A stretch of DNA of 64,000 bases from an uncultured Caulobacterales bacterium. GTDB lineage: Bacteria > Pseudomonadota > Alphaproteobacteria > Caulobacterales > Maricaulaceae. The notes beneath the pieces are model-generated. The model saw only the letters and a program-made list of their open reading frames with translations, searched no databases and was not told where the DNA came from. Position 1 is the stretch's first letter; every line of letters begins with the position of its first letter. The translations under genes were made by a program, and so were the position numbers. Below, in pieces: positions 44,531 to 61,032 of the stretch. The stretch lies in assembly GCA_937929915.1 (NCBI GenBank), contig CALFUN010000017.1, forward strand, positions 1-64,000. Reading direction: 5' to 3'.

Positions 44531-46426
44531 ATGACTTTGAAAACACCTTTACTTGATAGTGTTAACACACCGCAAGATTTGAAGAAAATCTCAAAAGTCG
44601 ACCTGCCTGCTTTGGCAGATGAACTTCGTGCCGAGATGATACATGCTGTGTCTGGTATTGGCGGGCATTTTGGCGCAGGTTTGGGTGTCATCGAATTAAC
44701 CACAGCCCTTCATTATGTTTTCAACACGCCCGATGATAAAATCATTTGGGATGTAAGTCATCAAACCTATCCGCATAAAATACTCACAGGCCGCCGTAAC
44801 CGTATCCGCTCTATTCGCCAGAAAGGCGGTTTATATGGATTCACGAAACGCAGCGAATCTGACTATGATCCCTTTGGCGCAGCCCATAGCTCTACCTCTG
44901 TTTCAGCTGGTTTTGGCATGGCCATAGCGCGTGATTTTAACGGTGATACGAATAAAATTATCAGTGTTGTGGGTGACGGGGCCGCAACAGGCGGAATGAT
45001 CTATGAAGCGCTACTCAATGCGGGCGCATCAGATAGTCAGCTTTTAGTCATCTTAAACGATAATGGCATGTCGATTGCCCCAGCACAGGGCGCTTTAACG
45101 AACTATCTTTCATCGATTGTCAAATGCCGCGGGATTATGACGGATGCGCAAATTGCGCAGCATATCGAAAACATCATTGAAACAAACGGCACAAGTCATG
45201 ACGAGCTTGCAGCCTGCCAAACCTTCTTCGCCCAGCTTGGGTTTAACTATATCGGCCCTGTTGACGGTCATAATCTTGAGCACCTTGTCCCAATTTTAGA
45301 AACAATCCGCGATACGACAAGCGGGCCAGTTTTTCTGCATGTGATTACCGAAAAGGGCAAAGGCCACCCATTTGAAGCATCGCATAAAGAAAACTACCAT
45401 GCGGTTGGAAAATTCTGCCCTGATACAGGCACCATGGCGCCAAAATCGGCAGGCGGTGCGCCAAGTTACACCAAGGTCTATGCACAAAGCCTTATTCAAG
45501 AAGCCAAAGCAGATGATAAAATCATTGCCATCACAGCCGCCATGCCATCAGGCACAGGTCTTGATATTTTCGGCGCAGCGTTCCCTGAACGCACATTCGA
45601 CGTAGGCATTGCCGAACAGCATGCCGTGACATTTGCGGCAGGTCTGGCTGCAGAAGGCATGAAGCCATTTTGCACGATTTACTCAACATTTTTACAGCGA
45701 GGTTATGACCAAATTGTGCATGATGTTGCTTTGCAGAACTTACCTGTCCGTTTTGCTATGGACCGCGCAGGACTTGTTGGAAATGACGGAGCAACCCATG
45801 CAGGCAGCTTTGATCTTGCTTATTTAACCTGCTTGCCCAATATGGTGATTATGGCCGCAGGCGATGAGGCTGAACTTGTGCATATGGTCGCAACTGCCGC
45901 CGCCTATGATGACGGCCCTATTGCTCTACGTTATCCGCGCGGCGCTGGTTTTGGCGTAGATATGCCCGAAACTGGTCAAGTCCTTGAAATTGGTAAGGGC
46001 CGCATCATGCGCGAAGGCTCTAACATTGCCATCTTATCTTTGGGCGGCAGATTATATGAAGCCCTAGAGGCCGCGGACATCTTGGCTACGCGCGGATTAT
46101 CCGCAACTGTCGCTGATGCGCGGTTTGCCAAGCCGCTTGATATTCATCTTATCGAACAACTCGCAAATGAGCATGATGTTCTTATTACCATCGAAGAAGG
46201 TGCCTCTGGCGGTTTTGGTGCGCATGTCTTGACTCATCTGGCCCGCAACGGGCAGCTGGATAAAGGCCTAAAATTACGCCCTATGACGATTCCTGATACA
46301 TTTATCTCGCACGGCTCGCCTACGGATCAATATGTCGAAGCGGGATTAATGGCCCGCGATATTGTCAACACAGCTTTGGATGCCCTCGGGCAATCTGATT
46401 CTGGTGCCAAATATGCCGCGCAATAA
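44531..46426 (+). CDS. dxs: 1-deoxy-D-xylulose-5-phosphate synthase
   Basis: A 631-residue thiamine-diphosphate enzyme joining pyruvate and glyceraldehyde 3-phosphate, the first and flux-setting step of the MEP isoprenoid pathway. Landmarks are the His in [36 protein letters not shown] motif [18 protein letters not shown] with [19 protein letters not shown], and [18 protein letters not shown]. It lies inside the hpn operon, so precursor supply is tied to hopanoid output. Another dxs copy elsewhere in the genome cannot be excluded from this window. Confidence 0.96.
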
Positions 46427-46478: not shown

Positions 46479-47378
46479 GTGTCAAAGGGGCTATCAACCA
46501 ATATGGACAGGGCGCATGATGCTGTGCGGCAAATCGTGGAGCGCTCTGGTACGTCTTTTTTCTGGGCAATGCGCCTACTGCCTGAAGCCCGCAGGCAAGC
46601 GATTTTCGCAGTGTATGCTTTTTGCCGTGAAGTCGATGACATCGCTGATGGCAATATGCCGCGCAAAGACAAACATGCCGCGCTTGATATATGGCGAAAG
46701 CAAATTACTGACATTTTTACAGTAAATATAGCCATTGATGACTCTACGCCAAATGGCGCGATTTTGATAATTTTGCAAAATGCTATAGTCACATATGACC
46801 TCGTTAAAGATGATTTCATTGCTATTATTGACGGCATGCAGATGGATGTTGACGGGCCGATTATCGCGCCGTCCATGCAAGAGCTGGAGCTTTATTGTGA
46901 CCGTGTAGCCTCCGCGGTTGGGCGCTTATGCGTTCCTATATTCGGACAAGCCGACGCCAAAGGTCGAGCCGTAGCCGATCATCTTGGACTGGCCTTGCAG
47001 CTCACTAATATCATACGCGATGTTCCTGAAGATGCACAGATTAACCGTCTCTATCTGCCTCGTGAATTATTAGAGCAGCATGGCATTGATACAGGCGAGC
47101 CGAACGCCGCTGCTAGCCATATCAACATAGCCCATGTTTGCGAAGCCTTAGGACAGCGCGCCGAGCAAGCCTATAATGACGCCAAAGCCGCGATTGCATT
47201 ATGTGATCCCAAAGCCATGAAAGCGCCAATCATCATGATGCAGGTTTATTATTTAAACTTAAAACGTTTGCGTCACGCCGCTTGGCAACCTCAGAACTTA
47301 CGTAATATAGGCAAGTTAAAACGCGGCACGCAAAAACTTGAAAAATTATTCGTGGCGCTGCGATATGGGGCGTTTTAA
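46479..47378 (+). CDS. hpnD: Presqualene diphosphate synthase HpnD
   Basis: A 299-residue head-to-head prenyl synthase condensing two farnesyl diphosphates into presqualene diphosphate. Visible motifs are SGTSFFWAMRLLPEARRQAIFAVYAFCREVDDIAD (first Asp-rich motif in the last residues; shown here as landmarks SFFWAMRLLP and CREVDDIAD), YCDRVASAVGRL and the second motif LTNIIRDVPEDA with RLYLPRELL. The GTG at 46479 has AAGG six bases before it; ATG 46503 is the alternative and would also keep the domain. Its TAA overlaps the hpnE ATG by one base. Confidence 0.95.
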   Translation: MSKGLSTNMDRAHDAVRQIVERSGTSFFWAMRLLPEARRQAIFAVYAFCREVDDIADGNMPRKDKHAALDIWRKQITDIFTVNIAIDDSTPNGAILIILQNAIVTYDLVKDDFIAIIDGMQMDVDGPIIAPSMQELELYCDRVASAVGRLCVPIFGQADAKGRAVADHLGLALQLTNIIRDVPEDAQINRLYLPRELLEQHGIDTGEPNAAASHINIAHVCEALGQRAEQAYNDAKAAIALCDPKAMKAPIIMMQVYYLNLKRLRHAAWQPQNLRNIGKLKRGTQKLEKLFVALRYGAF

Positions 47379-48658
47379 TGACAAGCCAAGCTTCGCATGT
47401 TCATATTATTGGCGCAGGCATGGCAGGCCTATCAGCTGCCGTTGAGTTAACCCAAAAAAACTATAATATCAGCTTATATGAAGCCGCGCCGCAAGCTGGC
47501 GGGCGATGTCGGTCTTTCTATGACTCAAAGCTGGATTGCGAGATTGATAACGGCAATCACCTTTTACTCTCTGGCAATCAATCTGCCGCCAATTACCTGA
47601 AAATTATTGGTGCAGAAGACGGATTAATTGGCCCTGATGCAGCTATATTTCCTTTTATTGATATTCGGACATCCAAGCGCTGGGATATAAAATTTAACCC
47701 CTCGCCTATCCCGTTTTGGCTCTTGGATAAATCGGCTCGCGTCCCAGGGGCCAGCCTTAGGCAACATCTGGCCCTTGCTAAAATGATGCGCGCCCAAGAT
47801 CATCATGTCATTGCGGATTTCATAGATACAAGTAATCCGCTCTATGAACGCCTCATGGATCCGTTAAGTGTCGCCGTCATTAACATGCCGCCAGATAAAG
47901 CGAGCGCAAAACTTATGGCCAATGTGCTAAAAGAAACGATTTTAAAAGGCGGCATAGCTTGTCAGCCCAGACTGGCGGCTCATAGTCTGGCCAAGACATT
48001 TGTGGATCCGGCTTTGCGTTATTTTGATTCGCAAAGCGCCGATATAAAATTTGGAACACGGCTAAAATCTATCACACAAAAAGATGCGCGAATAAGCGCG
48101 CTGAATTTTGCTAAAAACACTATAGAGCTTGGCGATAATGATTATGTCATCATGGCTCTACCGCCAGAACCGACGGGTGATATTCTTGACTTTATCACAC
48201 CGCCTCAAGATTATTCATCCATTATCAACGCACATTTTAAATTGGATAAGCCGATTAGAGTAGATTGGCCCGCCCCGCTTATTGGCCTTATCGGGGCGGC
48301 GGCGCAATGGCTCTTTATTCGAGATAATATCGCATCCATTACAATTTCAGCCGGCGATATATGGCTTGGTGAGCGCTCTGATAGTCTTATTAAAAAATTA
48401 TGGACGGAAATCGCACCGATTTTAGGCGAAGACCCCATCCAAGTCCCGCCTGCTCGTATTATTAAAGAAAAACGCGCCACGCTCGCACAAACCCCTGCTT
48501 TAGAAGCCCTACGCCCTGCGTCTCAAACCCCGTTTAAAAACTTATATCTTGCAGGGGATTGGACAGATACAGCCCTGCCCGCTACAATCGAAGGCGCTAT
48601 TCGGTCAGGCGTTATAGCCGCCAATCACGTTTCGATGAGCCTAAAAGCTCATGCTTGA
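47378..48658 (+). CDS. hpnE: Squalene-forming FAD-dependent oxidoreductase HpnE
   Basis: A 426-residue flavoprotein of the amine oxidase/phytoene desaturase family that reduces hydroxysqualene to squalene. The dinucleotide fold is IIGAGMAGLSAAVEL at the N-terminus, followed by YEAAPQAGGRCRSF, the second conserved FAD contact, and the C-terminal LYLAGDWTDTALPATIEGAIRSG. Order after hpnC and hpnD completes the three-protein squalene route used by most hopanoid-making bacteria. TAATG coupling with hpnD; 48 bases to the cyclase gene. Confidence 0.95.
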   Translation: MTSQASHVHIIGAGMAGLSAAVELTQKNYNISLYEAAPQAGGRCRSFYDSKLDCEIDNGNHLLLSGNQSAANYLKIIGAEDGLIGPDAAIFPFIDIRTSKRWDIKFNPSPIPFWLLDKSARVPGASLRQHLALAKMMRAQDHHVIADFIDTSNPLYERLMDPLSVAVINMPPDKASAKLMANVLKETILKGGIACQPRLAAHSLAKTFVDPALRYFDSQSADIKFGTRLKSITQKDARISALNFAKNTIELGDNDYVIMALPPEPTGDILDFITPPQDYSSIINAHFKLDKPIRVDWPAPLIGLIGAAAQWLFIRDNIASITISAGDIWLGERSDSLIKKLWTEIAPILGEDPIQVPPARIIKEKRATLAQTPALEALRPASQTPFKNLYLAGDWTDTALPATIEGAIRSGVIAANHVSMSLKAHA

Positions 48659-48706: not shown

Positions 48707-50653
48707 GTGAACACACAAGCGATTGATACAGCCAATGCCACCCCCGCCCTTGAAGGTCTGGAAGACTTTATCAAGTCAAGCGCAGATGGCCTCAAGGCGC
48801 GCCAAAATGGTGATGGCCATTGGTTGTTTGAGCTTGAAGCAGATGCGACAATACCTGCTGAATATATCCTATATATGCATTTCATGGACGAAATTGACAC
48901 AGAGCTTCAGGGTAAATTATGTGTCTATTTGCGTCGTATCCAAAATGAAGATGGTAGCTGGCCGCTTTTCTATAAAGGCGATATGGATATATCGGCCACG
49001 ATTAAAGCCTATTACGCCTTAAAACTCGCAGGCGAAGATATTAACACCCCGCATATGAGCAAAGCGCGCGAGAAAGTTCTCGCGGCTGGCGGGGCCGAAC
49101 GCAGCAATGTCTTTACACGCTACGCGCTTGCGCTTTTTGGACAAGTGCCATGGAAAGCTGTCCCTGTCATGCCTGTCGAGCTTATGTCTATGCCCGATTG
49201 GTTTCCTGTGACCATTTGGAAAATTTCTTATTGGTCGCGGACAGTCATTACGCCCTTACTCGTCCTTGCCGCTTTAAAGCCCAAAGCTCGCAATCCAAAA
49301 AATGTCGATATACAAGAATTATTTAAACAAGATCCTGAAACCATCACCGATTATCATAAAAATGTTACAGGCAAACGCCTCGGTGATTTCTTCATAATTT
49401 TAGACAAAGTATTGCGCGTTGTTGAACCCTATTTTCCAAAGAAATTTCGCAAAAAATCTATGGATAGAGCCGTCGCCTTTTTCACCGAACGCATGAATGG
49501 CGAGGACGGACTTGGCGCAATTTTTCCAGCTATGGCCAATGCAGTTATGGCGCTCGATACGCTAGGTTACGCCAAAGATGATCCGATTGTTGTAACAGGC
49601 AAGGCTGCACTGAAAAAACTTCTCACCGATGATAATGGCGAGATTTACTGCCAGCCATGTTTATCACCCGTTTGGGATACCGCCCTTGCCTCTCATGCAA
49701 TGCTTGAAGCGAGCCATGAGAGCAGTGTGAACGCTGCTGAGCAAGGATGTGACTGGTTGATGGATCGCCAAATCTTAGAGGTCAAAGGCGATTATATCAA
49801 AAAAGCGCCCGACTTACGCCCTGGCGGCTGGGCGTTTCAATATTGGAATGATTACTATCCCGACGTAGATGACACAGCCGTTGTTGGCATGGCGATGCAC
49901 CGCACAGGCGATCCTAAATATAAAGAGGCAATCGCCCGCGCCGAAGAATGGGTACTCGGTATGCAATCGAGTAATGGCGGGTGGGGAGCCTTTGATATTG
50001 ATAATGATAAAGATTATCTCAATTACGTTCCTTTTGCAGATCATGGCGCTTTACTGGATCCCCCAACCGAGGATGTTAGCGCACGTTGCTTGAGCTTTCT
50101 GGCACAAATCGGGCATGACACCTCCCACCCCGTTGTAGCCAAAGGGTTGAAATATCTAAAGGATGAGCAGCAAGAGGACGGCTCTTGGTATGGCCGCTGG
50201 GGTACGAATTACGTTTATGGTACATGGTCAGTGTTATGCGCGCTCAATGTTCTGGGCCAGCCGCATGATGCACCTTATATTCGCAGAGCCGTTGATTGGT
50301 TATTGTCGCGGCAAAATGATGATGGCGGCTGGGGCGAGGACGGCGCGACATATTACGATGACCGCAAGGCAGAAAACAAAGCCAGTACGGCCTCGCAAAC
50401 GGCTTGGGCTGTTATGGGATTAATGGCGGTTGGCGAAGTTGATAACCCGGCAGTGCAGCGCGGAATTGCCTTTATTATGAAGGCGAAAAACACAGCTGGT
50501 AAATGGGAAGAACCTTGGTTTACCGCCGTTGGTTTTCCGCGCATTTTCTATCTGCGCTATCATGGTTATAGCTCTTATTTTCCGATTTGGGCAATGGCAC
50601 GTTACCAAAACCTTAAGAATAGTAACTCTAAAACCCCCGCATTTGGCATGTGA
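48707..50653 (+). CDS. shc: Squalene-hopene cyclase
   Basis: A 648-residue peripheral membrane enzyme that cyclises squalene to hopene/hopanol. The catalytic acid motif D-x-D-D-T-A is in YPDVDDTAVVG (about residues 384-389). Several QW repeats can be read, for example QNEDGSWPLFY, QSSNGGWGAFD, QQEDGSWYGRWG and QNDDGGWGED. Length is normal. The start is a GTG with AAGGA about eight bases upstream. The stop overlaps the GTG of hpnG. The product is the core C30 hopanoid that HpnH and HpnG extend. Confidence 0.97.
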   Translation: MNTQAIDTANATPALEGLEDFIKSSADGLKARQNGDGHWLFELEADATIPAEYILYMHFMDEIDTELQGKLCVYLRRIQNEDGSWPLFYKGDMDISATIKAYYALKLAGEDINTPHMSKAREKVLAAGGAERSNVFTRYALALFGQVPWKAVPVMPVELMSMPDWFPVTIWKISYWSRTVITPLLVLAALKPKARNPKNVDIQELFKQDPETITDYHKNVTGKRLGDFFIILDKVLRVVEPYFPKKFRKKSMDRAVAFFTERMNGEDGLGAIFPAMANAVMALDTLGYAKDDPIVVTGKAALKKLLTDDNGEIYCQPCLSPVWDTALASHAMLEASHESSVNAAEQGCDWLMDRQILEVKGDYIKKAPDLRPGGWAFQYWNDYYPDVDDTAVVGMAMHRTGDPKYKEAIARAEEWVLGMQSSNGGWGAFDIDNDKDYLNYVPFADHGALLDPPTEDVSARCLSFLAQIGHDTSHPVVAKGLKYLKDEQQEDGSWYGRWGTNYVYGTWSVLCALNVLGQPHDAPYIRRAVDWLLSRQNDDGGWGEDGATYYDDRKAENKASTASQTAWAVMGLMAVGEVDNPAVQRGIAFIMKAKNTAGKWEEPWFTAVGFPRIFYLRYHGYSSYFPIWAMARYQNLKNSNSKTPAFGM

Positions 50654-51342
50654 TCATGGCCAATAAAATTGGCATTGTTACGGGTATTTTGCTTGAGGAT
50701 AAGTTACTGCGTAAAGGGTTTAAACATGCGGGGTATCGTGATGTTTTAACCGCCTGCGCGGCGGGAACCATTAACGGCGCAAAGGATGCCGCGCACCAAC
50801 TTATCGGCCAAGGCGCAACGCATTTAATTAGTTTTGGCGTATGCGGCGGTCTGGCTCCAGATTTAAAAGCTGGAGATTTAATCCTCGCACATTCAGTACG
50901 CATGAATGAGGATATTTTAACCCTGCAAAGTCCGTGGCTGCAATCTATGTACGCGCAAAACCCGCATGCAAAATCTGAATTAATGCTCTCTGTTGAAACA
51001 CCTATTGCTAGCGCAGCGGCAAAGCAAACCGCTTTTAAGACCACATCTGCGGTCGCTGTGGATGTTGAAAGTTATGCCGTCGTCAAAATCGCAAAAACCC
51101 ATAATTTACCTAGCATGATTATACGAGCCGTTTTGGATGCAAGCACGCAAAGCTTACCTAAAGCTGCCTTAAGCGGAGTTGATGAAGCCGGGCAAACACA
51201 GATATGGCCTGTGATAACGAGCCTTGCCAAACATCCGCAAGACTTACCAGCCTTGATAAATCTAGGCCGCGATTCCGCTCGGGCCCAAAAGACTTTAAAA
51301 CAGCTCATAAAAAAAGGCGCTCCAAATTTCTGGGCGCCTTAA
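50650..51342 (+). CDS. hpnG: Adenosylhopane nucleosidase/phosphorylase HpnG
   Basis: A 230-residue member of the nucleoside phosphorylase fold that releases adenine from adenosylhopane to give ribosyl- or phosphoribosylhopane. Landmarks are IGIVTGILLEDKLL, HLISFGVCGGLAPDLKAGDLIL, and the ribose/purine-site region AVDVESYAVVKIAK with PSMIIRAVLDAST. The reading frame starts GTG-ATC-ATG, so either GTG 50650 (overlapping the cyclase stop) or ATG 50656 is used. Its last codons form the 5' arm and 3' arm of the terminator at 51314. Acts directly after HpnH, which is encoded convergently next door. Confidence 0.92.
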   Translation: MIMANKIGIVTGILLEDKLLRKGFKHAGYRDVLTACAAGTINGAKDAAHQLIGQGATHLISFGVCGGLAPDLKAGDLILAHSVRMNEDILTLQSPWLQSMYAQNPHAKSELMLSVETPIASAAAKQTAFKTTSAVAVDVESYAVVKIAKTHNLPSMIIRAVLDASTQSLPKAALSGVDEAGQTQIWPVITSLAKHPQDLPALINLGRDSARAQKTLKQLIKKGAPNFWAP

Positions 51343-51362: not shown

Positions 51363-52475
51363 TTACTCAGCGGCCTCTTGTTGCATCATCTTATCAACAT
51401 GCTCTTCATGTACATCATAATTACCCGGACGTTGATTGGATAAATCAATTTCGGGTGCCATTGGGCCTTCAGTTTTAATCCCGCGAAGCGCAACTCCAAG
51501 AGCTTTGATCGGATGGTGTAGCATATCCATAACAGTTGTTGGTTCATATCCGCAATGCGCCATGCAATCCGAACATTTCTCGTAATTACCAGTCCCGTAA
51601 CTATCCCAATCTGTGTCTTCCATGAGCTCTTGGAAACTATCGACGAAGCCTTCGCCGATAAGGTAGCAAGGCTTTTGCCAACCAAATATATTACGCGTTG
51701 GCATACCCCATGGCGTACATGTGTAGCTTTGATTCCCTGCTAAGAAATCAAGGTAAAGATGGGAGTGATTAAACTCCCATTTCTTGCCCTTACCTTTGCG
51801 GAAAACATCACGGAACAGATTTTTTGTCTTTTCGCGATTTAAAAAACCATCTTGGTCTGGCGCGCGTTCATAAGAGAAACCTGGGGACATTGTCACGCCC
51901 ACGCCTAATTCTTTGCAGAAATCCATATATTCTGCGATTTGATCCGCCGTTGTACCCTCAAAGATCGTAGCATTCACATTCACATGAAAACCAGCTTCTT
52001 TGGTGGCCTTGATCGCTTTAATCGCGCGGTCAAACACACCATCTTGGCAAACAGCCTTATCATGTTCTTCTTTCAGGCCGTCCAAATGCACAGAGAAAAA
52101 GAGATAATCTGATGGCTCAAATAGGTGCAGCTTTTTCTCTAGTAGCAGTGCATTTGTGCAAAGTGATACGAATTTTTTACGGTCTGTAATACCTTTGACA
52201 ATTTCGCCAATTTCTTTGTGAATGAGCGGTTCTCCGCCCGGAATAGCCACCATAGGCGCGCCGCATTCATCAACGGCTTGCAAACATTCCTCAGCCGATA
52301 AGCGCTTACGTAAAATCGGATCTGGATAATCAATCTTGCCGCAACCAGCGCAAGCAAGGTTACACTGAAAAAGTGGCTCGAGCATGAGGACAAGCGGATA
52401 ACGCTTATTCCCTTTAAGGCGTTGTTTCATAACATAAGCCCCAACGCGAGCTTGTTGAATTAAAGGGACACCCAT
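51363..52475 (-). CDS. hpnH: Adenosylhopane synthase, radical SAM protein HpnH
   Basis: A 370-residue radical SAM enzyme joining the 5'-deoxyadenosyl radical to hopene, the first step of C35 side-chain building. The cluster motif is C-x3-C-x2-C in CNLACAGCGK (about residues 38-47), followed by GGEPLIH and a C-terminal Cys-rich SPASM-like region (CTPWGMPT, CYLIGEG, CSDCMAHCGYEPT). The start MGVPLIQQARVGAYVMKQRL is standard for HpnH. It follows ispH by 52 bases on the same strand and faces hpnG. Confidence 0.96.
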   Translation of the reverse strand: MGVPLIQQARVGAYVMKQRLKGNKRYPLVLMLEPLFQCNLACAGCGKIDYPDPILRKRLSAEECLQAVDECGAPMVAIPGGEPLIHKEIGEIVKGITDRKKFVSLCTNALLLEKKLHLFEPSDYLFFSVHLDGLKEEHDKAVCQDGVFDRAIKAIKATKEAGFHVNVNATIFEGTTADQIAEYMDFCKELGVGVTMSPGFSYERAPDQDGFLNREKTKNLFRDVFRKGKGKKWEFNHSHLYLDFLAGNQSYTCTPWGMPTRNIFGWQKPCYLIGEGFVDSFQELMEDTDWDSYGTGNYEKCSDCMAHCGYEPTTVMDMLHHPIKALGVALRGIKTEGPMAPEIDLSNQRPGNYDVHEEHVDKMMQQEAAE

Positions 52476-52527: not shown

Positions 52528-53493
52528 TTAGGCAGATTCTTTCTCTCTTGTTTCTATTTTACGCAATTCCATTGGAATGTTGAACTGCACATTTTCGCTG
52601 ATACCGTCAAGTAATTCTATTGTGTTGTAACCTGCATCGCCAAGGGCATTTAGTAATGCATCCACCAACACTTCTGGAGCCGAGGCGCCTGCTGTAACGC
52701 CGACACGGTCTACATCTTTTAACCAATCCAGATTAAGCGCGGAGGCATCGTCTATCAAATAGCTGGCCAGGCCCATTTCCGTCCCAATTTCGCGTAATCG
52801 ATTCGAATTTGAAGAATTTTTAGCGCCAATAACAAGCAATAAATCAACCTGCGGGGCCATATCTCGCACAGCCTGTTGACGGTTTTGCGTCGCGTAGCAA
52901 ATATCTCGAATATCTGGGCCTTCAATGGCAGGAAAACGCATCTTAAGAGCTTCAATAACCTCGCGCGTATCATCGACAGATAAGGTTGTTTGCGTCACGT
53001 AAGACAGTTTATCTGGGCTTTTCACCTTTAACTGAGCAACGTCTTCTTTGGATTCGATCAAATGCACCGTGCCGTCAATTTGGCCAAGCGTGCCTTCAAC
53101 TTCGGCATGACCAGAATGCCCTATCATAATGATTTCATAGTCTTTTTTTGCGTAGCGCTGCCCTTGCTTATGCACCTTAGTGACAAGCGGGCATGTGGCG
53201 TCAAATGTATAAAGATTGCGTAATTTTGCATCGCTTTCTACCTTGCGGGACACACCATGTGCTGAAAATACAGTGATTGCGCCTTCTGGAATCTCATCGA
53301 CTTCCTCGACGAAAATAGCCCCTTTTTGGCGCAAATCATTGACGACATATTTATTATGTACGATTTCATGGCGTACATAGACGGGCGGGCCATATTTCTT
53401 CAAAGCCAGTTCAACAATATCGATGGCCCGTACAACACCCGCGCAAAACCCACGCGGTTGTGCGAGTAAAATTTTCTTTTCAGTATGTTTCAC
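52528..53493 (-). CDS. ispH: 4-hydroxy-3-methylbut-2-enyl diphosphate reductase
   Basis: A 321-residue iron-sulfur enzyme, the last step of the MEP pathway, giving IPP and DMAPP. The three cluster Cys lie in [22 protein letters not shown] and [10 protein letters not shown]; the substrate motif SNSNRL and TAGASAPE are present. With dxs in the same locus, both ends of the MEP pathway are linked to hopanoid genes. An AT-rich 250-base region (53494-53743) separates it from a divergent sulfotransferase gene and likely holds both promoters. Confidence 0.97.
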
Positions 53494-53743: not shown

Positions 53744-54847
53744 GTGGCATCCCCCAATTTCTCTCATCCGCTTTTCGGAGCTGATTTAAAAACGCTTTTG
53801 CGGTTAATTTTCAGCTCAGGCGGGGTGAAGCTTTCCAAAACCCTATTGCTGTGTTTGCTTATCTTATCGGCGATTGGCCGCCTGCCATTTACAGTCCTTG
53901 AATATATTTATGTCGCAGTGAAACGGCCCAAAATAGAACCTCTCGCGCCGCCTATATTCATTCTTGGCCATTGGCGTAGCGGCACAACACATCTTTACAA
54001 TATATTGAGTAAATCGGATAAATTTGGCTTCGTCTCACCTTTTTCAACAGCTTTGCCTTGGGATATATTATTCATAGGCCGTCTATTTGCGCCTATCTTA
54101 CGCCGTAGCCTGCCAGAGGGCCGCTATATTGATAATGTTAGTGTGGATCCAGACAGTCCGCAAGAAGACGAAATTGCCTTAGCCAATATGACGTCTTTAT
54201 CCTATTATCAGGCAATATATTTTCCCAAGAAATTTGACCATTATTTTGAAACGGGAACATATTTTGAAGGTTTGTCCGATACGCAAATTTCAAAATGGGA
54301 GCGCACTTTACGTTACCTATATCTTAAGCTCACACTTGACCAAAATGGACGTAGATTATTGATTAAAAACCCCGTCTACACGGCTCGTGTTGCGCATTTA
54401 CGCAAGATATACCCCGACGCTAAATTCATTCATATTCACCGAAATCCCTATAAGGTTTTTGTGTCTATGCGAAATTTCTACGAAAAGCTTTTTCCCCAAT
54501 TTGCGCTGCAAGATTACAGCCATATTGATATTGATAATGTTGTTTTCAAAACTTATTCTCGCATGATGCGCGCACTCAAAAATGACATAGCAGATATACC
54601 CGACAGCCAATATGCCGAGTTAAGTTTTGATGAGCTGCAATCCGATACGATCGGGCAATTAAAACGTATATATGCCCAGCTTGATCTCGGTAATTTTGAT
54701 GAAGACGAAACCGTGTTTAAAACTTATCTTGAGTCTATAACGGGTTATAAAAAGAACATATTTGAAATATCACCAGAGTTAAAAACGAAAATAGACCATG
54801 AATGGGGTGATGTTATGGCTTTGTGGGGCTATAAGACTGACACGTAA
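53744..54847 (+). CDS. Sulfotransferase family protein, membrane-associated
   Basis: A 367-residue PAPS-dependent sulfotransferase. The 5'-phosphosulfate loop is GHWRSGTTHLYN (about residues 75-86), and the 3'-phosphate site is HIHRNPYKVFVSMRNFYEK. A hydrophobic segment (LLLCLLILSAIGRLPFTVLEYI, residues 34-56) precedes the domain, suggesting work at the inner membrane on a lipid acceptor. The start is a GTG with AAGG upstream. Placed among hopanoid genes and followed at once by a paraoxonase-like and an HpnA-like gene, it may sulfate a hopanoid or, given crtW/crtZ in this window, a carotenoid. Acceptor is unknown. Confidence 0.85.
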   Translation: MASPNFSHPLFGADLKTLLRLIFSSGGVKLSKTLLLCLLILSAIGRLPFTVLEYIYVAVKRPKIEPLAPPIFILGHWRSGTTHLYNILSKSDKFGFVSPFSTALPWDILFIGRLFAPILRRSLPEGRYIDNVSVDPDSPQEDEIALANMTSLSYYQAIYFPKKFDHYFETGTYFEGLSDTQISKWERTLRYLYLKLTLDQNGRRLLIKNPVYTARVAHLRKIYPDAKFIHIHRNPYKVFVSMRNFYEKLFPQFALQDYSHIDIDNVVFKTYSRMMRALKNDIADIPDSQYAELSFDELQSDTIGQLKRIYAQLDLGNFDEDETVFKTYLESITGYKKNIFEISPELKTKIDHEWGDVMALWGYKTDT

Positions 54848-55886
54848 GCTTCTGATAAATTTTGCCATTTTAGTAATCGGGTTAAGTGCATGCCGCGCAC
54901 AAACCTTCTCAATGGCGCAATGTGAGCGAGTTACGATTACACATAAGGGTAAGCCCGTAATTGGCGTTGAAGATATGGCCTATGATGATACGGCGCAAAC
55001 CCTTTACCTCTCAGCCTATGATCGGCGCAGCCATAGTAAAGGCGGGATTTATCGCCTATCTGTTGACGCGGCTGCCAAAGGCCGGGAGTTTAACGTGAGC
55101 GCCCTGATCAATGATATTCGCCCGCACGGTATTGATTTATGGAGATACGGCGAGCAAGTTACGCTAAGTTTCATTGATCGCCAAGGTGATGAAAACCGCC
55201 ATAAACCCGCCATTCGAACCCTATCATGGCATGATAATACGCCGACCCAATTAACGGAAGGCCCGTCTTTTCTTGATATAAGGGCTTGCGCGGCCAATAA
55301 CCTAACCCGCATGACGGGTACCGATACGGATAAGAGCATCATCTTTACCCAAACCCATCAAAGTTGCACGCATAAGGCTCAAATTCGAGAAAATATATTG
55401 ACTCCGAATAGAGCCACCGTCAGCATTGCAGAGGCTCAAACTGGCACGATAAAGCCTTATCTTGACACATTATCTTATGCCAATGGCATTGCCATTCACC
55501 CAAATGCACAACGCTTATATGTAGCAGAAACGCGTGGTAAGCGGCTCACAGTGTTTCACGCGAAAAATTCTGAAAAAATATCCGTCATAGACCTGCCCGG
55601 CGGCCCAGATAACCTCACCCGTAATGGCGAGGATATATACGCAGCTCTTATCCCAAATCTGATACGATTTTCGCGATTTCAAAAGCGCGAAACACACCGT
55701 ATCAACAGCCGTTTTGCGATTGTCACACCTATTGACGCAACTCACCATTCCGTCAGTTCTTATGATGTCCCCGCCGCAATTATATCTGGCGCGACAGTTG
55801 TGATAAAAGCAGGGCAGCATATATGGCTTGGCAGCGCTTATGACACTGCCATTGCTCGCTGTACGCTTCCGAGTGATCTGTCATGA
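54810..55886 (+). CDS. Paraoxonase/SMP-30-like beta-propeller lipoprotein
   Basis: A 358-residue predicted lipoprotein: signal MLWLCGAIRLTRKLLINFAI ending in LSAC. The rest resembles the six-bladed paraoxonase/arylesterase and gluconolactonase family: VEDMAYDDTAQTLYLSAYDRR, PHGIDLW, ANGIAIHPNAQRLYVAETRGKRL, and the calcium-type pair in GGPDNLTR. The family hydrolyses lactones or esters; substrate here unknown. It overlaps the sulfotransferase end by 38 bases and the next gene by 4 (ATGA), so the trio is one unit. ATG 54798 is an alternative start. Confidence 0.72.
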   Translation: MLWLCGAIRLTRKLLINFAILVIGLSACRAQTFSMAQCERVTITHKGKPVIGVEDMAYDDTAQTLYLSAYDRRSHSKGGIYRLSVDAAAKGREFNVSALINDIRPHGIDLWRYGEQVTLSFIDRQGDENRHKPAIRTLSWHDNTPTQLTEGPSFLDIRACAANNLTRMTGTDTDKSIIFTQTHQSCTHKAQIRENILTPNRATVSIAEAQTGTIKPYLDTLSYANGIAIHPNAQRLYVAETRGKRLTVFHAKNSEKISVIDLPGGPDNLTRNGEDIYAALIPNLIRFSRFQKRETHRINSRFAIVTPIDATHHSVSSYDVPAAIISGATVVIKAGQHIWLGSAYDTAIARCTLPSDLS

Positions 55887-56863
55887 ATAAGACCGTTCTC
55901 GTCACAGGTGCGGGCGGCTTTATTGGCCGCCATCTTATTAGACAGCTGGCAGATGATGACTGGGATATACGCGGTTTTGATATTAGTCCTGCGCCAGATG
56001 ATTTACACCAGAACATCACATGGATCCAAGGGTCTATTCTGGATATGACAGCCTTAAAAACCGCAATGCGCGGCGCGTGTCATGTCTATCATATGGCGGC
56101 GATAACGCATTTAGGGGTTCCGCAAACACAGCGCTATGAGCAGGTCAACCATATCGGCACACGCAATGTTATTAATGCAGCCAAGACGTTAAATATAGAA
56201 CATCTTCTAATGACCTCGACCGAAGTTATTTTACGCGGCTGGAATGATGCCCGCCCAACCCCGCTCACCGAAACCGAAAGCTTACCAGATATGAGCGCAA
56301 TGGCTGGGCCATATTGCCGCTCTAAACTGGCAGCAGACATTATAGCGCGCGCAGCTATAGCTGACGGACAGCCAATATCAATTCTATATCCCACAGTGCC
56401 AATAGGCGCAGGTGATGTGAATATGACAGCGCCTAGCGCAATGATACAAGCCTTTATAAATAACCCACCGCCTGCTTATCTGGACTGTCTTTTCAATCTT
56501 GTTGCCGTCCAAGATGTCGCCCGCGCCCACATTCTCGCTGCGCAAAAACCTGCGGGCGGACGGTATATTTTAGGCGGCGAAACGATAGAGATGTCAAAAC
56601 TGATAAATATGTTCGGGCAATATACTGACAAAACCATGCCCAAACGTGCTGTGCCTTATGCCTTGGCGGCTCTAACCGCTTATGTCTCGCTTATCGGGGC
56701 AAAGATAACGGGCAAAGCCCCGCTTGCGAGCCTAGAAGGCGTACGTCTTGCCAAGCACAAGACTGTTATTGATAATCATTATGCACGGCAAGAGCTAGGC
56801 TGGACACTCACGCCTATAGAAACAGCATTAGAGCAATCCATTAAATTCTTGAAAAATAAATAA
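55883..56863 (+). CDS. HpnA-like NAD-dependent epimerase/reductase
   Basis: A 326-residue short-chain dehydrogenase of the extended type. The cofactor loop is VTGAGGFIGRHL at the N-terminus, the active site is Y-x-x-x-K in YCRSKLAAD, with an upstream Ser/Thr in MTSTEVI. Overall order, and VPIGAGDVNMTAPSAMIQAF plus VAVQDVARAHILAA, match the hopanoid-associated epimerase group HpnA. HpnA's true substrate is not established; a sugar head group or lipid ketone is possible. It ends 2 bases from the convergent hpnM stop. Confidence 0.83.
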   Translation: MNKTVLVTGAGGFIGRHLIRQLADDDWDIRGFDISPAPDDLHQNITWIQGSILDMTALKTAMRGACHVYHMAAITHLGVPQTQRYEQVNHIGTRNVINAAKTLNIEHLLMTSTEVILRGWNDARPTPLTETESLPDMSAMAGPYCRSKLAADIIARAAIADGQPISILYPTVPIGAGDVNMTAPSAMIQAFINNPPPAYLDCLFNLVAVQDVARAHILAAQKPAGGRYILGGETIEMSKLINMFGQYTDKTMPKRAVPYALAALTAYVSLIGAKITGKAPLASLEGVRLAKHKTVIDNHYARQELGWTLTPIETALEQSIKFLKNK

Positions 56864-56865
56864 AT

Positions 56866-57495
56866 TTACTCAGACACAGATTTCATATGCGCCAATAGCG
56901 CATCGACACCTTCGCGTTCGGCCAGAGATGAAAATTCTTTCCGCTTAGATACAAGCGGAGAAATACGTTCTACTAAAACATCAAGCAAATAAGGCTCATC
57001 ATCAATCCAGCGTAACCGCCAATCAATCGAAGCTTTTTTAATACCATTTTTGTCGACGAGTTCACTACTGACAAGCGCTTCTGTATCACCGCGTAGGCGG
57101 CTGGTTTTTACATTGATTTGACGCTCGGCTAGCTCACCGATTTGGCTAGCAAAGGTTGCCGCAATATAAGATGGAAATAAATCTTCATATTCAGTCCGTT
57201 GCCTAGCGTTAGCTAACTTATTTGGCGTGCCTTTAAACAGAAACTTCCCAATGGATTCTGTTGCTAACTTCGCCTGAAGCACCTCGCGATAGGCCGTATC
57301 GCGCGCCGCATCCGACAATCCAGGCCGCGCGGCAACCTCGGCCAATTCACCGACAAGCACTTGAGTAAACCCTTCAGCTTGCGCTTTATCAATCGCAAAA
57401 GCTGGCATGGCTGTCACCGTCGACAGTAAAACCGAAACGCAGAAAGCCCGCAAAGTTTGCCTGTGAAAACGGCGTCTTGAAATAATCTTAGGCAT
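56866..57495 (-). CDS. hpnM: Periplasmic lipid-binding protein HpnM (MlaC/Ttg2D family)
   Basis: A 209-residue exported protein of the MlaC/toluene-tolerance Ttg2D fold, the soluble carrier type that moves lipids across the periplasm. The signal is 34 residues and begins ISRRRFHRQTLRAF, close to a twin-arginine motif (S-R-R-x-F). The mature part shows RTEYEDLFPSYIAATFASQI and WRLRWIDDEPYLLDVLVE, both typical of the family. It is 94 bases after hpnN on the same strand. HpnM is known as a hopanoid-locus protein; direct hopanoid carriage is likely but not shown by sequence. Confidence 0.88.
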   Translation of the reverse strand: MPKIISRRRFHRQTLRAFCVSVLLSTVTAMPAFAIDKAQAEGFTQVLVGELAEVAARPGLSDAARDTAYREVLQAKLATESIGKFLFKGTPNKLANARQRTEYEDLFPSYIAATFASQIGELAERQINVKTSRLRGDTEALVSSELVDKNGIKKASIDWRLRWIDDEPYLLDVLVERISPLVSKRKEFSSLAEREGVDALLAHMKSVSE

Positions 57496-57589: not shown

Positions 57590-60214
57590 TCACGATTTTG
57601 CGATTACCTCTTTGGAAGTTTTAACTCTGTTAAACCAATTCATTAGGCTAGGCGTTACAAAAACTGTACAAATAATCACCCAGATAATCGCAATACTCAA
57701 CAAGGCGCCCATGCTTGATGTACCGCGATGCTCAGAGAACGTTAAGCTGCCAAAGGACGCGATTGTTGTGAAACCGCTAAACAAAACCGCGCGCGGTGTC
57801 ACTGTGTCAAACACAGAGAGCTTATGCCCCGTTTTGCGTGATTGCAGCGCCAAATGCAAACTACTATCCACACCAATACCGATAAGTAATGGCAAGACAA
57901 TAACATTGGCAAAATTATAAGGTAGGCCAAAAATAACGCCTGATGCCGTTGTTAAAATGCCCGCCAAAATAAGCGGTACAAGCATGATAATGACAAGCTT
58001 CACGTCCCTAACGACCCAATAAAGCAGCAAGGATACCATGAAAAGCGCGGCAAAAATGGCTTGAAGCATAGCTCGCTGTACGATGTCACCGGCTGCCTGT
58101 ACGCTTCGCGCAGATCCCGATATGCCAGTCCCTTCAGATTGCGGCGCTATGCGAGCAATATCTGATATAAATTGACGCCGTAAGCCTTTATCGCGCAAAT
58201 CCTTTTTTGGAATAATTTCCACACGCGCTAAACCTCCATCAGCAGAATATCGTGATGTAATCGTTGCAGGAAGACTTTTACGGCTCACCTCACGCGCTTG
58301 GATTTGCTTGCGCAGGCGTTCAAGCTCATATGGCCAGTAAAAAAATAAATCGTGTTCGGTTCGCTTTTGCAAATCTGAATCCGCCGCTATCGCAGATTGC
58401 CACGCTATCAGCGCTGTTTTTAACCGCCTAGAAGATAAATCCGAGCGGGCTTCTAACGCCTCTATCAACCGCCCTACCGGGTGCGGCGCAATGGGATAAG
58501 CCTCCCCTTCACCTGATACGGCAATTTCCAATCCAATGGCAGCATATTCAATAAGCTCAAGCTTGTCCGCTTGGCCTTTGGGAATAAAATCCTGCAGGGT
58601 TCGGGCTGATTTAACACTATCAAGCTGTTCAAATATCGCCGCCGCGTCATGCGCAGCCATCTCATCTGGCGCAAGGTAATTAAGGCGGTAAGGCGTTGTT
58701 TCAGGACGATCAAATAGCTTATTAAAGGCCACCACAGATGGCGCTGTGCGATTTCGAAGCGCCATAGGGTCAGCATCAAATTTCGCCCTTGGTAGTAAAA
58801 CCGTAGCCAAAAGACCAAGCACAATGACACCCACCGCGATTGTGGGCCTAATTTTTTCTATAAGGCTTAGGCGTTTAGCCTCTATATTCCGACCTTGTTT
58901 CTTCGCTCTAAATTTGGGCCTGTTTAAGAAAGAATACACCGCTGGCAGAAAACTCGTTGCAACAAGAAATGCGACAATCACGCCAATGGCTGCAACAACA
59001 CCGAGCTGCGACATGCCTACAAATTTTGTCGGCGCGAAAGCTAAAAATGCCAGCGCAGTTGACGGCGCGGTTAAAACCAATGCTGTGCCAATACCACGCG
59101 ATGTGCGGTAAAAGGCTGCGGATGTCGATTTACCTTTCCCGCGCTCATGAACAATATGCAGCAATAAATGAATTGCAAAATCCACGCCCAAGCCAACCAT
59201 TAGAACCGTAAAAGCAATAGAGACAAGGTTAAGCTCTTGGTAAATTAACGCCGCAATACCCGCCGTAATCAATATGGAAATCACCAGAGAAATTAGTGTA
59301 AATATAGCCAAAATGAGCGAGCGCAATGCCCATAAAAGCAATAACCCAACCAAGATAAATGATATGAAAAACGCCAAGCCAATACCGCGACTTACGCTTA
59401 GTAATTCGTCTGAACGTAAAACGGGATTACCTGTAACATAGACTTGCGCATTAATATTGGTATCTAAGCGTATCGCCTTAACATGCTCATCTATGGCTTC
59501 CTGTATAACCGCAGATGGGCGCAGGCGCGAATTATCAAGCATAGGATCAATCGTCAGAACTCTTTGAAATGGCGGTTCTAAATCCTCTACAAAAGCAGAG
59601 CGCCATGACAAAGCGCGGCGCTTTGCGTTCAAGTTATGGGTCAACGTATCCGCCACAGCGTTAAAAATACCCGCTGCACTGTCATCATCTTGCTCTGCAG
59701 CTTGCGCAAGCGCGTCAAATAAGGATGGCAAGCTTGGGTCAAGCGTTAAGCGCTCAATCAAAGGCGCAGCTTCTGTAAGTTGTGTTAAGGTCGTCTCAAG
59801 CTCTTCTGTGTCTAAAAATAGCAGCCCATTTCTTTGAAAAAATGGGTCAAGTTCTGGATTAAAAATTGAATTGACGTCTTGCGTATCACTCAGGCTGCGT
59901 GAAAGATTTTCTGTAAATAAATCTACAGCGTCGGGACTATCAGCACGGATAAGAACTAATATTTCATTATCCGCTTGCGGAAATACAGTCTCATAGGCGA
60001 TTTGGTCTTGGCGATAAGGCGCATTCGCATCAATCATATCGCTTGTATCGGTATTTATACCAAGCAAAGACACAGCCAAGCCGCAGCCAATAAGTGCCAA
60101 AACACTCCATATTGCAATAACAGCAATACGATATTGCCGTGAGAAGCGAAGCCATTTTGACAAAGCCGCTTCTAAAACGTGGTTACTGGATTGATTCTGT
60201 GAGGCTTTAGACAT
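57590..60214 (-). CDS. hpnN: RND-family hopanoid transporter HpnN
   Basis: An 874-residue inner-membrane MMPL/RND protein: one membrane segment near residue 30, a periplasmic domain, a cluster of five segments (about 270-420), another segment near 460, a second periplasmic domain, and five segments at 715-860. The two repeats share the sterol-sensing-like turns VGLGVDFAIHLLLH and IGIGVDSSLHLALQ. HpnN has been shown in Rhodopseudomonas to be needed for hopanoid delivery to the outer membrane; length and order match. It is 29 bases after mlaA and followed by hpnM. Confidence 0.94.
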   Translation of the reverse strand: MSKASQNQSSNHVLEAALSKWLRFSRQYRIAVIAIWSVLALIGCGLAVSLLGINTDTSDMIDANAPYRQDQIAYETVFPQADNEILVLIRADSPDAVDLFTENLSRSLSDTQDVNSIFNPELDPFFQRNGLLFLDTEELETTLTQLTEAAPLIERLTLDPSLPSLFDALAQAAEQDDDSAAGIFNAVADTLTHNLNAKRRALSWRSAFVEDLEPPFQRVLTIDPMLDNSRLRPSAVIQEAIDEHVKAIRLDTNINAQVYVTGNPVLRSDELLSVSRGIGLAFFISFILVGLLLLWALRSLILAIFTLISLVISILITAGIAALIYQELNLVSIAFTVLMVGLGVDFAIHLLLHIVHERGKGKSTSAAFYRTSRGIGTALVLTAPSTALAFLAFAPTKFVGMSQLGVVAAIGVIVAFLVATSFLPAVYSFLNRPKFRAKKQGRNIEAKRLSLIEKIRPTIAVGVIVLGLLATVLLPRAKFDADPMALRNRTAPSVVAFNKLFDRPETTPYRLNYLAPDEMAAHDAAAIFEQLDSVKSARTLQDFIPKGQADKLELIEYAAIGLEIAVSGEGEAYPIAPHPVGRLIEALEARSDLSSRRLKTALIAWQSAIAADSDLQKRTEHDLFFYWPYELERLRKQIQAREVSRKSLPATITSRYSADGGLARVEIIPKKDLRDKGLRRQFISDIARIAPQSEGTGISGSARSVQAAGDIVQRAMLQAIFAALFMVSLLLYWVVRDVKLVIIMLVPLILAGILTTASGVIFGLPYNFANVIVLPLLIGIGVDSSLHLALQSRKTGHKLSVFDTVTPRAVLFSGFTTIASFGSLTFSEHRGTSSMGALLSIAIIWVIICTVFVTPSLMNWFNRVKTSKEVIAKS

Positions 60215-60243: not shown

Positions 60244-61032
60244 TCATTCAAAATCAGCCAAATCATCAAATGAATCTGAATCTTCGTGAATATTTGACTC
60301 ACGTCTTTGGTGATAAAGTGTGCGTAAATTTATATAAGGATCGGCCGATTCACGTATCATCTTTATCCGCGCGTCTTGACGTGCGCGTAAATCTAAAATA
60401 CTCGCGCCATTTGTTCCTGCAATCACTGTCGCTTCGCCGTCAAAATTCACGCGCCGAACTGGGTTTGCAACTATATCCCCCGCCCGCCCTGCTACATCGC
60501 GCAGATTTGAAGGGCCTAGCAAAGGCAGCATAATATAGGGGCCAGCAGGTATGTTATATGTGCCTAATGTTTGTCCAAAATCTTCCGTTTGAGATTGCAG
60601 CTCTGGGTCTTTGGATGCCACATCAAATATACCGCCTAACCCGACTGTAGAATTTATAAAAAAGCGCGAAAATGCGACGCCTGCATCATCTAAGTCGAAT
60701 TGCAAAAGCTCATTCACAAAAGAAATCGGCTCTCCCAGATTACTCGAAAAGTTCCGAACACCTTTCCTGACAGGCCGCGGGACAACGGTTTGATAACCGC
60801 GCGCTACAGGGCCAATAAGGACTTTATCCAAACCTTCATTAAAGGCATATACTCCGCGGTTAAGGCCTTCAAAAGGGTCGGACACCTCTTGATTGAGGTC
60901 AGGCGCAGATCTGCGCGTAGCTGTTGGAGGCAGCCCCGTTATAGACGCACATGCCGTCTGAAACAAAAGCCCCAGCAGGATTAAAATACGATATATACCG
61001 CGATTGACTGTGTTTTTCTGTATTTGTTTCAT
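60244..61032 (-). CDS. mlaA: Outer-membrane lipoprotein MlaA/VacJ
   Basis: A 262-residue lipoprotein (lipobox QTAC near residue 28). The MlaA core is clear: SDPFEGLNRGVYAFNEGLD, YQTVVPRPVRKGVRNF, NSTVGLGGIFDVA, FGQTLGTYNIPAGPYIMLPLLGPS and RDVAGRAGD. MlaA forms a ring in the outer membrane that passes lipids to or from MlaC-type carriers. Here it is encoded directly before hpnN and hpnM, in place of the usual MlaFEDB ABC complex. The long acidic tail after residue 240 (SNIHEDSDSFDDLADFE) is unusual in composition. Confidence 0.94.
   Translation of the reverse strand: MKQIQKNTVNRGIYRILILLGLLFQTACASITGLPPTATRRSAPDLNQEVSDPFEGLNRGVYAFNEGLDKVLIGPVARGYQTVVPRPVRKGVRNFSSNLGEPISFVNELLQFDLDDAGVAFSRFFINSTVGLGGIFDVASKDPELQSQTEDFGQTLGTYNIPAGPYIMLPLLGPSNLRDVAGRAGDIVANPVRRVNFDGEATVIAGTNGASILDLRARQDARIKMIRESADPYINLRTLYHQRRESNIHEDSDSFDDLADFE

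Follow-up and report, generated by a model that had tools for sequence, protein, structure and literature searches.

Hopanoids are the best-known bacterial surrogates of sterols and leave hopanes in rocks. In Alphaproteobacteria, the genes for their synthesis form clusters containing hpnB, hpnD to hpnH, shc, dxs, ispH and hpnN. Within this pathway, adenosine is attached by HpnH, ribosylhopane is formed when HpnG releases the sugar, and HpnI catalyzes the first step towards bacteriohopanetetrol (BHT) glucosamine and BHT cyclitol ether. The latter branch, which consists of HpnI, HpnK and HpnJ, is a case of a genetically encoded modification of the side chain of hopanoids that proceeds by glycosylation and not by sulfation. 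In the accessible part of PMC12583986, adenosylhopane is described as the first intermediate, an outward-transport role is assigned to HpnN and hpnA is reported to have no established function; the five groups of bacteriohopanepolyol derivatives (BHPDs) named there do not include sulfate esters, and the hpn genes named include no sulfotransferase or paraoxonase-like protein. Sulfation of an isoprenoid has been described for the carotenoids of marine Erythrobacter, where it was shown by mass spectrometry and where activity in extracts suggested a sulfotransferase (PMC6627997, accessible part). In this study, we have analysed a stretch of 64,000 nucleotides from an uncultured Caulobacterales bacterium (contig CALFUN010000017.1), hereafter termed the window, whose hopanoid cluster resembles those described in Alphaproteobacteria but encloses three additional overlapping open reading frames (ORFs) at positions 53744-56863, which are all located on the + strand:

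53744..54847, + strand: SULT, a sulfotransferase of the 3'-phosphoadenosine 5'-phosphosulfate (PAPS)-dependent type (Sulfotransfer_3), 367 residues, GTG start
54798..55886, + strand: PROP, a paraoxonase-1-like propeller lipoprotein, 362 residues, lipobox LSAC (C32)
55883..56863, + strand: an HpnA-like extended short-chain dehydrogenase/reductase (SDR) of a variant (Asp33) clade, 326 residues

The ORFs of SULT and PROP overlap by 50 nucleotides and those of PROP and the HpnA-like protein by 4 (ATGA). The trio is flanked by hpnB, dxs, hpnD, hpnE, shc, hpnG, hpnH and ispH on one side and by hpnM-like, hpnN-like and mlaA genes on the other. Its position between genes of hopanoid synthesis and transport, which had been proposed in a first-pass annotation of the letters, thus agrees with both the ORFs and their family matches. 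Together, the three genes constitute a conserved module of hopanoid producers combining a sulfotransferase with a paraoxonase-like protein and a variant of HpnA. From the genes and their folds, the conservation of sites and linkage and the joint occurrence with the squalene-hopene cyclase Shc, we consider it very probable that the trio acts on hopanoids or their precursors, and we moderately favour its assignment as a module for the tailoring of the polar head, which would yield a sulfated hopanoid carrying its sulfate on the C35 side chain of bacteriohopanepolyols.

The conservation of the trio is manifested in a phylogenetic tree of 79 SULT sequences calculated with a quick method after removal of duplicates (L020, L040 and L105) and of sequences below 250 residues (L068 and L072), where the window protein is part of a clade of 36 members with an SH-aLRT support of 100%. 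Counting PROP as being beside SULT up to a distance of 600 bases and HpnA up to 2500 bases, in stretches of which some are short, we find both partners in 29 of the 36 cases, in line with the initial proposal that the three genes form a single unit, and HpnA in 32. The trio resides on one strand in 27 of the 36 cases and in 23 the stretch includes at least two hpn genes. Cultured organisms with a trio locus are Amphiplicatus metriothermophilus, Marinicaulis flavus and Iodidimonas muriae. PROP and HpnA overlap by four nucleotides in 17 of 20 pairs on the same strand (L020 and L085 being one genome), in a survey where the start codon nearest to that of the window protein was selected, a choice on which the SULT-PROP overlaps depend. 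Since PROP of the window is only 24 to 37% identical to its counterparts at other loci, the gene order has outlived much sequence change. In genome G082, the overlapping PROP-HpnA pair is found on contig C19 and SULT on C10; its PROP comprises 457 residues and scores 85 bits against a trio PROP with no match to a Pfam family. A second copy of SULT is present in Skermanella stibiiresistens (L024) and in G441 (L114); it is accompanied there by neither PROP nor HpnA nor any hpn gene within the stretch examined.

The distribution of SULT was compared to that of Shc in 100 relatives of the window genome and in a class sample of 387 Alphaproteobacteria with a completeness of at least 90%. Among the relatives, close SULT homologues (E below 1e-100) and Shc occupy the identical 10 genomes and none of the 90 others (Fisher 5.8e-14), and an eleventh match to SULT, in G004 with 34% identity, falls outside the clade. 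The genus of the window comprises one genome with both proteins and 17 with neither, and the corresponding numbers are one and two in g18 and one and three in g27, with some of these genomes being incomplete. In the class sample, Shc exceeds its cut-off in 11 of 11 genomes containing SULT, compared to 86 of 376 others (Fisher 1.6e-7). SULT comes with Shc, yet most genomes with Shc do not contain SULT. An equal abundance of the trio in genomes without hopanoids, which the first-pass annotation had considered, is therefore refuted for SULT. The same relationship is found across the SULT clade, where 35 of 36 members originate from genomes with Shc, including L022, whose Shc is split over two contigs and scores below the cut-off, with the exception being a genome of 1.8 Mb. 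It also holds in a named collection, where 15 of 16 genomes reached via close SULT loci contain a match to Shc, which in 14 exceeds the cut-off (the test covered 50 of 64 loci and left out L028, which shares its genome with L024, and 13 distant relatives). Linkage alone does not account for this pattern because Shc is located far from SULT or on a different contig in many genomes, namely at a distance of at least 133 kb on the same contig in G224, G095, G441 and G517, and on a different contig in G063, G067, G075, G082, G087, G091, G253, G317 and G338, which are draft assemblies in which proximity may be obscured by a contig break. The genome of Amphiplicatus metriothermophilus (G106, L018) contains a match to Shc of 687 bits, which is over the cut-off and contrary to the listing of Amphiplicatus among genera without shc in the accessible part of PMC12583986.

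The third protein matches the HpnA family TIGR03466 over residues 4-325 with a score of 246.2 bits, below the equivalog cut-off of 367.65, and the second-best match of this type in the same genome is far behind at 70.4 bits. With ordinary HpnA, whose nearest solved relative is 3wj7, it shares the full-length match and the SDR motifs TGxxGFxG and YxxxK, and T8, G9, G12, G15 and Y144/K148 are kept in all 79 HpnA sequences aligned, ordinary ones included. The proteins differ at the site choosing the coenzyme, where all 33 trio-type sequences (counting the G082 pair) and all seven variant sequences of genomes lacking SULT contain Asp33, whereas all 31 ordinary HpnA sequences contain a residue that is not acidic and precedes an Arg or Lys. 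By the customary residue rule for such folds, NAD is thus predicted as coenzyme of the variant, and NADP as that of the ordinary protein. Compared to its original description as HpnA-type, the third protein is a full-length relative that scores too low for the equivalog and is placed among the variants, whose coenzyme is predicted to differ. For comparison, we have used the first 60 genomes, in listing order, of the 86 without SULT whose Shc exceeds the cut-off, leaving out five where it scores below. Each of 20 SULT genomes places an HpnA in the variant clade, and in 19 the Asp-bearing protein is found in place of ordinary HpnA; the latter, when scored over its cut-off, is present in one of the 20 compared to 49 of the 60 genomes lacking SULT (Fisher 7.8e-10), the single case being G082, which carries the variant too. 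This division of HpnA into two types with different predicted coenzymes makes its role accessible to experiments. A first tree, which included only the 30 best-scoring ordinary sequences, had suggested that the variant occurs exclusively with SULT. This reading was dropped once 15 lower-scoring sequences and the G082 pair were added, upon which seven sequences from genomes lacking SULT were placed inside the clade and one from Bipolaricaulota outside. At three loci of family f34 without SULT (L166, L169 and L172), the variant HpnA belongs to a hopanoid cluster that includes genes for Dxs and an HpnN-like protein, and in L166 genes encoding CopC and CopD are interposed.

SULT is a predicted PAPS-type sulfotransferase, as judged from its sequence and model. 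It matches the Pfam family Sulfotransfer_3 (PF13469) with an E-value of 4.7e-33 and 115.7 bits compared to a gathering cut-off of 27. The residues G75, R78, G80, T81 and T82 of the loop GHWRSGTT, which we take to be the 5' phosphosulfate motif, and R233 and S241 of a second region, presumably the 3' phosphate motif, are invariant in 33 aligned sequences including distant ones. The closest fold matches of its AlphaFold model (pLDDT 93.8) are the mycobacterial proteins STF9 (2z6v) and STF1 (2zq5), which share the fold and sequence profile, the two features compared, with SULT at an identity of 15-16% in the fold match. CurM, an olefin synthase and tyrosylprotein sulfotransferases rank after these two, and retinol dehydratase is also found among the matches. 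An assignment as nodulation sulfotransferase of the NoeE type was rejected (21.8 bits compared to a cut-off of 500). The membrane segment proposed for SULT in the first-pass annotation is seen as a hydrophobic stretch of 19 residues in the window protein (residues 34-52, mean hydropathy 2.25) but, because the equivalent N-terminal region of the other clade members looked at shows values of only 0.45 to 1.89, it is not conserved as a membrane-spanning unit, and a helix touching the membrane appears likelier.

Among known structures, the second protein most closely resembles serum paraoxonase PON1, which was found in a search of the PDB with a profile of 14 PROP orthologues (E 4.8e-30) and whose entries occupy Foldseek ranks 1-10 in a search with the AlphaFold model of PROP (pLDDT 85.7; E 1e-16, TM 0.70/0.77). 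A lipobox is detected with a permissive pattern in 18 of 22 PROP sequences, the window protein among them. These features confirm its initial description as a lipoprotein propeller of the paraoxonase type. Besides the fold, both proteins share five aligned site positions, with H115, N168, N224, D269 and N270 of PON1 corresponding to H110, N167, N229, D271 and N272 of PROP, which are invariant in the 14 sequences. We take the four latter residues of PON1 to be calcium ligands and H115 to be catalytic; E58/D59 of PROP presumably correspond to E53/D54 of PON1, an equivalence based only on a motif that is outside the aligned region. The proteins differ in that PROP is a bacterial lipoprotein of only 16-18% identity, where the position of H134, the second histidine of the PON1 dyad, is occupied by an arginine (Arg128) that is also invariant in the 14 sequences. 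The score against the Pfam family SGL (SMP-30/gluconolactonase, PF08450) is 20.7 bits, below the cut-off of 26.3, and a propeller of the YncE type was discarded in favour of PON1 (23.9 bits compared to a cut-off of 400).

Sulfotransferases and SDRs of this kind are active in the cytosol, a lipoprotein outside of it. In the mechanism that we propose, a cytosolic SULT, probably touching the membrane, would use PAPS to sulfate one of the hydroxyls on the C35 side chain generated by HpnH and HpnG. The variant HpnA, with NAD as predicted coenzyme, would act on this side chain as well; conversion of the lactol of ribosylhopane to a lactone or a related oxidation or epimerization appears most plausible. 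HpnN would carry the lipid outwards, and PROP, which is predicted to be lipid-anchored outside the cytosol and has kept the calcium-ligand positions, would hydrolyse an ester or lactone of the head group. Lactones are a usual type of paraoxonase substrate. The SDR and a lactonase would thus pair up, one making a lactone that is opened by the other, with SULT adding charge. The complete scheme, in which an NAD-dependent HpnA makes the lactone, SULT sulfates and the anchored PROP opens the ring outside the cytosol, is a tentative and rather unlikely version of this proposal. The same low probability applies to its product, an anionic hopanoid carrying sulfate and perhaps also a carboxyl group, which would define an undescribed branch beside cyclitol ether and aminotriol and be present in at least eight family groups of Alphaproteobacteria. 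The absence of HpnI, which is found over its cut-off in 0 of 20 SULT genomes compared to 20 of the 60 Shc genomes lacking SULT (p 0.002; of this branch, the search covered HpnI), gives the impression that SULT genomes decorate this end of the molecule in another way. Since fatty-acyl BHT esters have been reported in Hypericibacter terrae (PMC12583986, accessible part), a role of PROP as esterase is as open as that of a lactonase.

Several observations weigh against the module as a dedicated route to a sulfated hopanoid. The Fisher values overstate the associations because the genomes are related and some are incomplete. When counted by family, the exclusion of HpnI is weaker (0 of 9 compared to 11 of 37, p 0.09). 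APS kinase, which is needed for PAPS, is present in 20 of 20 SULT genomes, but it does not discriminate because it is also common in Shc genomes lacking SULT (49 of 60). In 34 genomes where SULT is below 40% identity, only nine contain a match to Shc, eight of them over the cut-off, and the wider SULT family thus has other substrates. The variant HpnA clade includes seven proteins from Shc genomes lacking SULT, with no relative of SULT or PROP in the surrounding stretches, which makes the variant wider than sulfation. Conversely, the SULT-linked HpnA of Bipolaricaulota is of the ordinary type (V33, R34), in a genome (G148) without a match to Shc. HpnA is not beside SULT in four of the 36 clade members and PROP in seven. 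PROP is the weakest part of the module: since G105 and G115 contain SULT and Shc with no match to PROP at 1e-20, it cannot be essential everywhere, and since general paraoxonase-like proteins in the SULT genomes G409 (212 bits) and G251/G253 (198 bits) score higher than the trio PROPs of G517 and G229 (185 bits), the score alone cannot define the trio type and was abandoned as marker, separating among the relatives but failing in the class sample.

The latter findings bear on the question of whether the three genes belong to one pathway at all. SULT might tailor hopanoids next to a PROP that acts as general detoxifying paraoxonase-like lactonase and an HpnA doing its ordinary job, as could be expected from the abundance of paraoxonase-like proteins (with E-values up to 1e-10 in 39 of the 100 relatives), from those clade members that lack PROP beside SULT and from the high scores of general proteins in the class sample. 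We nevertheless regard this separation as improbable, in fact as the least probable of the alternatives discussed here except for the sulfation of carotenoids. Among the relatives, trio PROPs reach at least 217 bits in nine of the 10 genomes with SULT and no other match exceeds 187.5, albeit with a model built on trio sequences, which favours them. Moreover, a paraoxonase-like match at 1e-20 is found in 20 of 20 SULT genomes compared to three of 54 Shc genomes lacking SULT (a comparison covering 54 of the 60 and six genomes reached through loci), and the four-nucleotide overlap of PROP with HpnA is widespread, with the pair being kept even where SULT is located elsewhere, as in G082. The possibility that SULT sulfates a different molecule of the envelope, such as a glycolipid, lipopolysaccharide or polysaccharide that depends on hopanoid-ordered membranes, appears unlikely, although somewhat less so. 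It would agree with the many genomes without Shc that harbour wider relatives of SULT and with neighbours of general envelope function, which are MlaA and MlaC-like proteins in the window and TamB together with an Omp85/TamA-like gene, which are arranged divergently from SULT in 11 loci (L018, L020-L023, L025 and L083-L087 from 10 genomes, L020 and L085 being one; Pfam assignment for the L018 pair). Such a substrate is difficult to reconcile with the tie of the window clade to Shc even where the genes are unlinked and with the composition of the neighbourhoods, where 12 of 17 gene groups common to at least four loci are hpn, isp, Shc or trio genes. The remaining five are TamB, Omp85, Usp and PhyH, with one member identified in each, and a fifth group, c16, and no glycan gene was identified among them.

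Two further alternatives concern the chemistry of the reaction. In sulfotransferases of the CurM and retinol dehydratase type, the sulfate ester is subsequently eliminated or displaced, and sulfation by SULT might equally be a transient activation leading to a sulfate-free hopanoid of the unsaturated, anhydro, ether or amine type. The presence of CurM, olefin synthase and retinol dehydratase among the fold matches, although ranked below STF9 and STF1, and of a class III aminotransferase (Pfam E 1.1e-89) adjoining SULT in a hopanoid locus of Myxococcales would fit such a role. However, a family search that covered some of the neighbours revealed no lyase recurring with SULT, whose regular partners are instead an SDR and a hydrolase of the propeller type, so that we judge an activation to be improbable, at a level between the two preceding alternatives. 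Finally, SULT might sulfate a hydroxylated carotenoid as in Erythrobacter, which would similarly be an isoprenoid in a marine alphaproteobacterium but a different substrate, an option considered in the first-pass annotation that is compatible with the presence of CrtI in the window genome. Among the relatives, CrtI exceeds its cut-off in five of 10 SULT genomes and in 38 of 90 others (p 0.74), and no match at 1e-50 was found in the other five SULT genomes (13 first-look candidates were scored in each; other carotenoid routes were not searched). SULT follows Shc rather than CrtI and sulfation of a carotenoid is thus highly improbable. Consequently, the carotenoid branch of the initial proposal falls and the link to hopanoids stands, stronger than could be known at the time.

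The genes surrounding the trio in the window were assigned from family matches as follows:

42415..43236, + strand: HpnC/HpnD-type gene, 273 residues, grouping with HpnD-like sequences (c10), the name HpnC following from its position
43233..44423, + strand: hpnB glycosyltransferase (TIGR03469, 479 bits, over cut-off)
44531..46426, + strand: dxs (TIGR00204, over cut-off)
46479..47378, + strand: hpnD (TIGR03465, over cut-off)
47378..48658, + strand: hpnE (TIGR03467, over cut-off)
48707..50653, + strand: shc (hpnF), squalene-hopene cyclase (TIGR01507, 778.8 bits, over cut-off)
50650..51342, + strand: hpnG-like phosphorylase (TIGR03468, 168.4 bits, just under the cut-off of 187.1)
51363..52475, - strand: hpnH, adenosyl-hopene transferase (TIGR03470, 546.5 bits, over cut-off)
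52528..53493, - strand: ispH (NF002188, over cut-off)
56866..57495, - strand: hpnM/mlaC-like gene (Pfam MlaC 1.9e-19; HpnM 50.7 bits, below cut-off)
57590..60214, - strand: hpnN-like hopanoid transporter of the RND type (TIGR03480, 727 bits, just under the cut-off of 751.85)
60244..61032, - strand: mlaA-like lipoprotein (Pfam MlaA 6e-70)

Between positions 53300 and 57000, predicted promoters and terminators were uninformative, with 10 and 4 sites compared to 9.0 and 3.5 in shuffled sequences. In L022 (13255-14139), L083 and L086, which are of the Parvularcula type, genes of a PhyH-family protein (phytanoyl-CoA dioxygenase) and of Usp are inserted between HpnA of the trio and hpnB (Pfam assignment for the pair in L022), and the PhyH protein is a possible candidate for a hydroxylase of the side chain. 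Relatives of SULT also accompany hopanoid-related genes outside the Alphaproteobacteria. In a metagenome-assembled genome of Myxococcales (L027:3414-12863), Shc, an HpnD-like protein, the class III aminotransferase, two SULTs, HpnH and an HpnG-like gene follow consecutively. In Bipolaricaulota, SULT of L068 (2-3430) adjoins hopanoid genes in the order SULT-HpnH-HpnG-HpnA. No match to Shc was found in the genome of L068, and its partial SULT is 64-67% identical to SULTs from two Shc-bearing genomes of the same phylum, which join two cyanobacterial sequences, equally from Shc genomes, in a supported group of the tree. These proteins perhaps represent a second hopanoid-linked SULT group. At three loci of Flavobacteriaceae (L036, L066 and L069), relatives of SULT have an HpnN-like transporter and an SDR with weak similarity to HpnA (23% identity) in their vicinity, with no Shc in the two of three genomes tested, which hints at an older grouping of transporter, SDR and sulfotransferase.

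The open-access full-text literature searched, with subscription journals mostly outside, contained no sulfated hopanoid, hopanoid sulfate ester or hopanoid sulfotransferase. If our assignment is correct, bacteria would possess an equivalent of the sterol sulfates in the form of an anionic hopanoid with a sulfate group, which would alter the charge of the membrane and could escape methods tuned to neutral or basic hopanoids. In this respect, it may be of relevance that Skermanella aerolata contains the genes and shows BHPDs by mass spectrometry, yet no products of Rohmer degradation, for which the authors found the reason unclear and suggested detection limits, and that Microvirga massiliensis behaves alike (PMC12583986, accessible part). 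Its congener S. stibiiresistens carries SULT, PROP and HpnA, which offers a lead, though only that, for the missing Rohmer products of S. aerolata.

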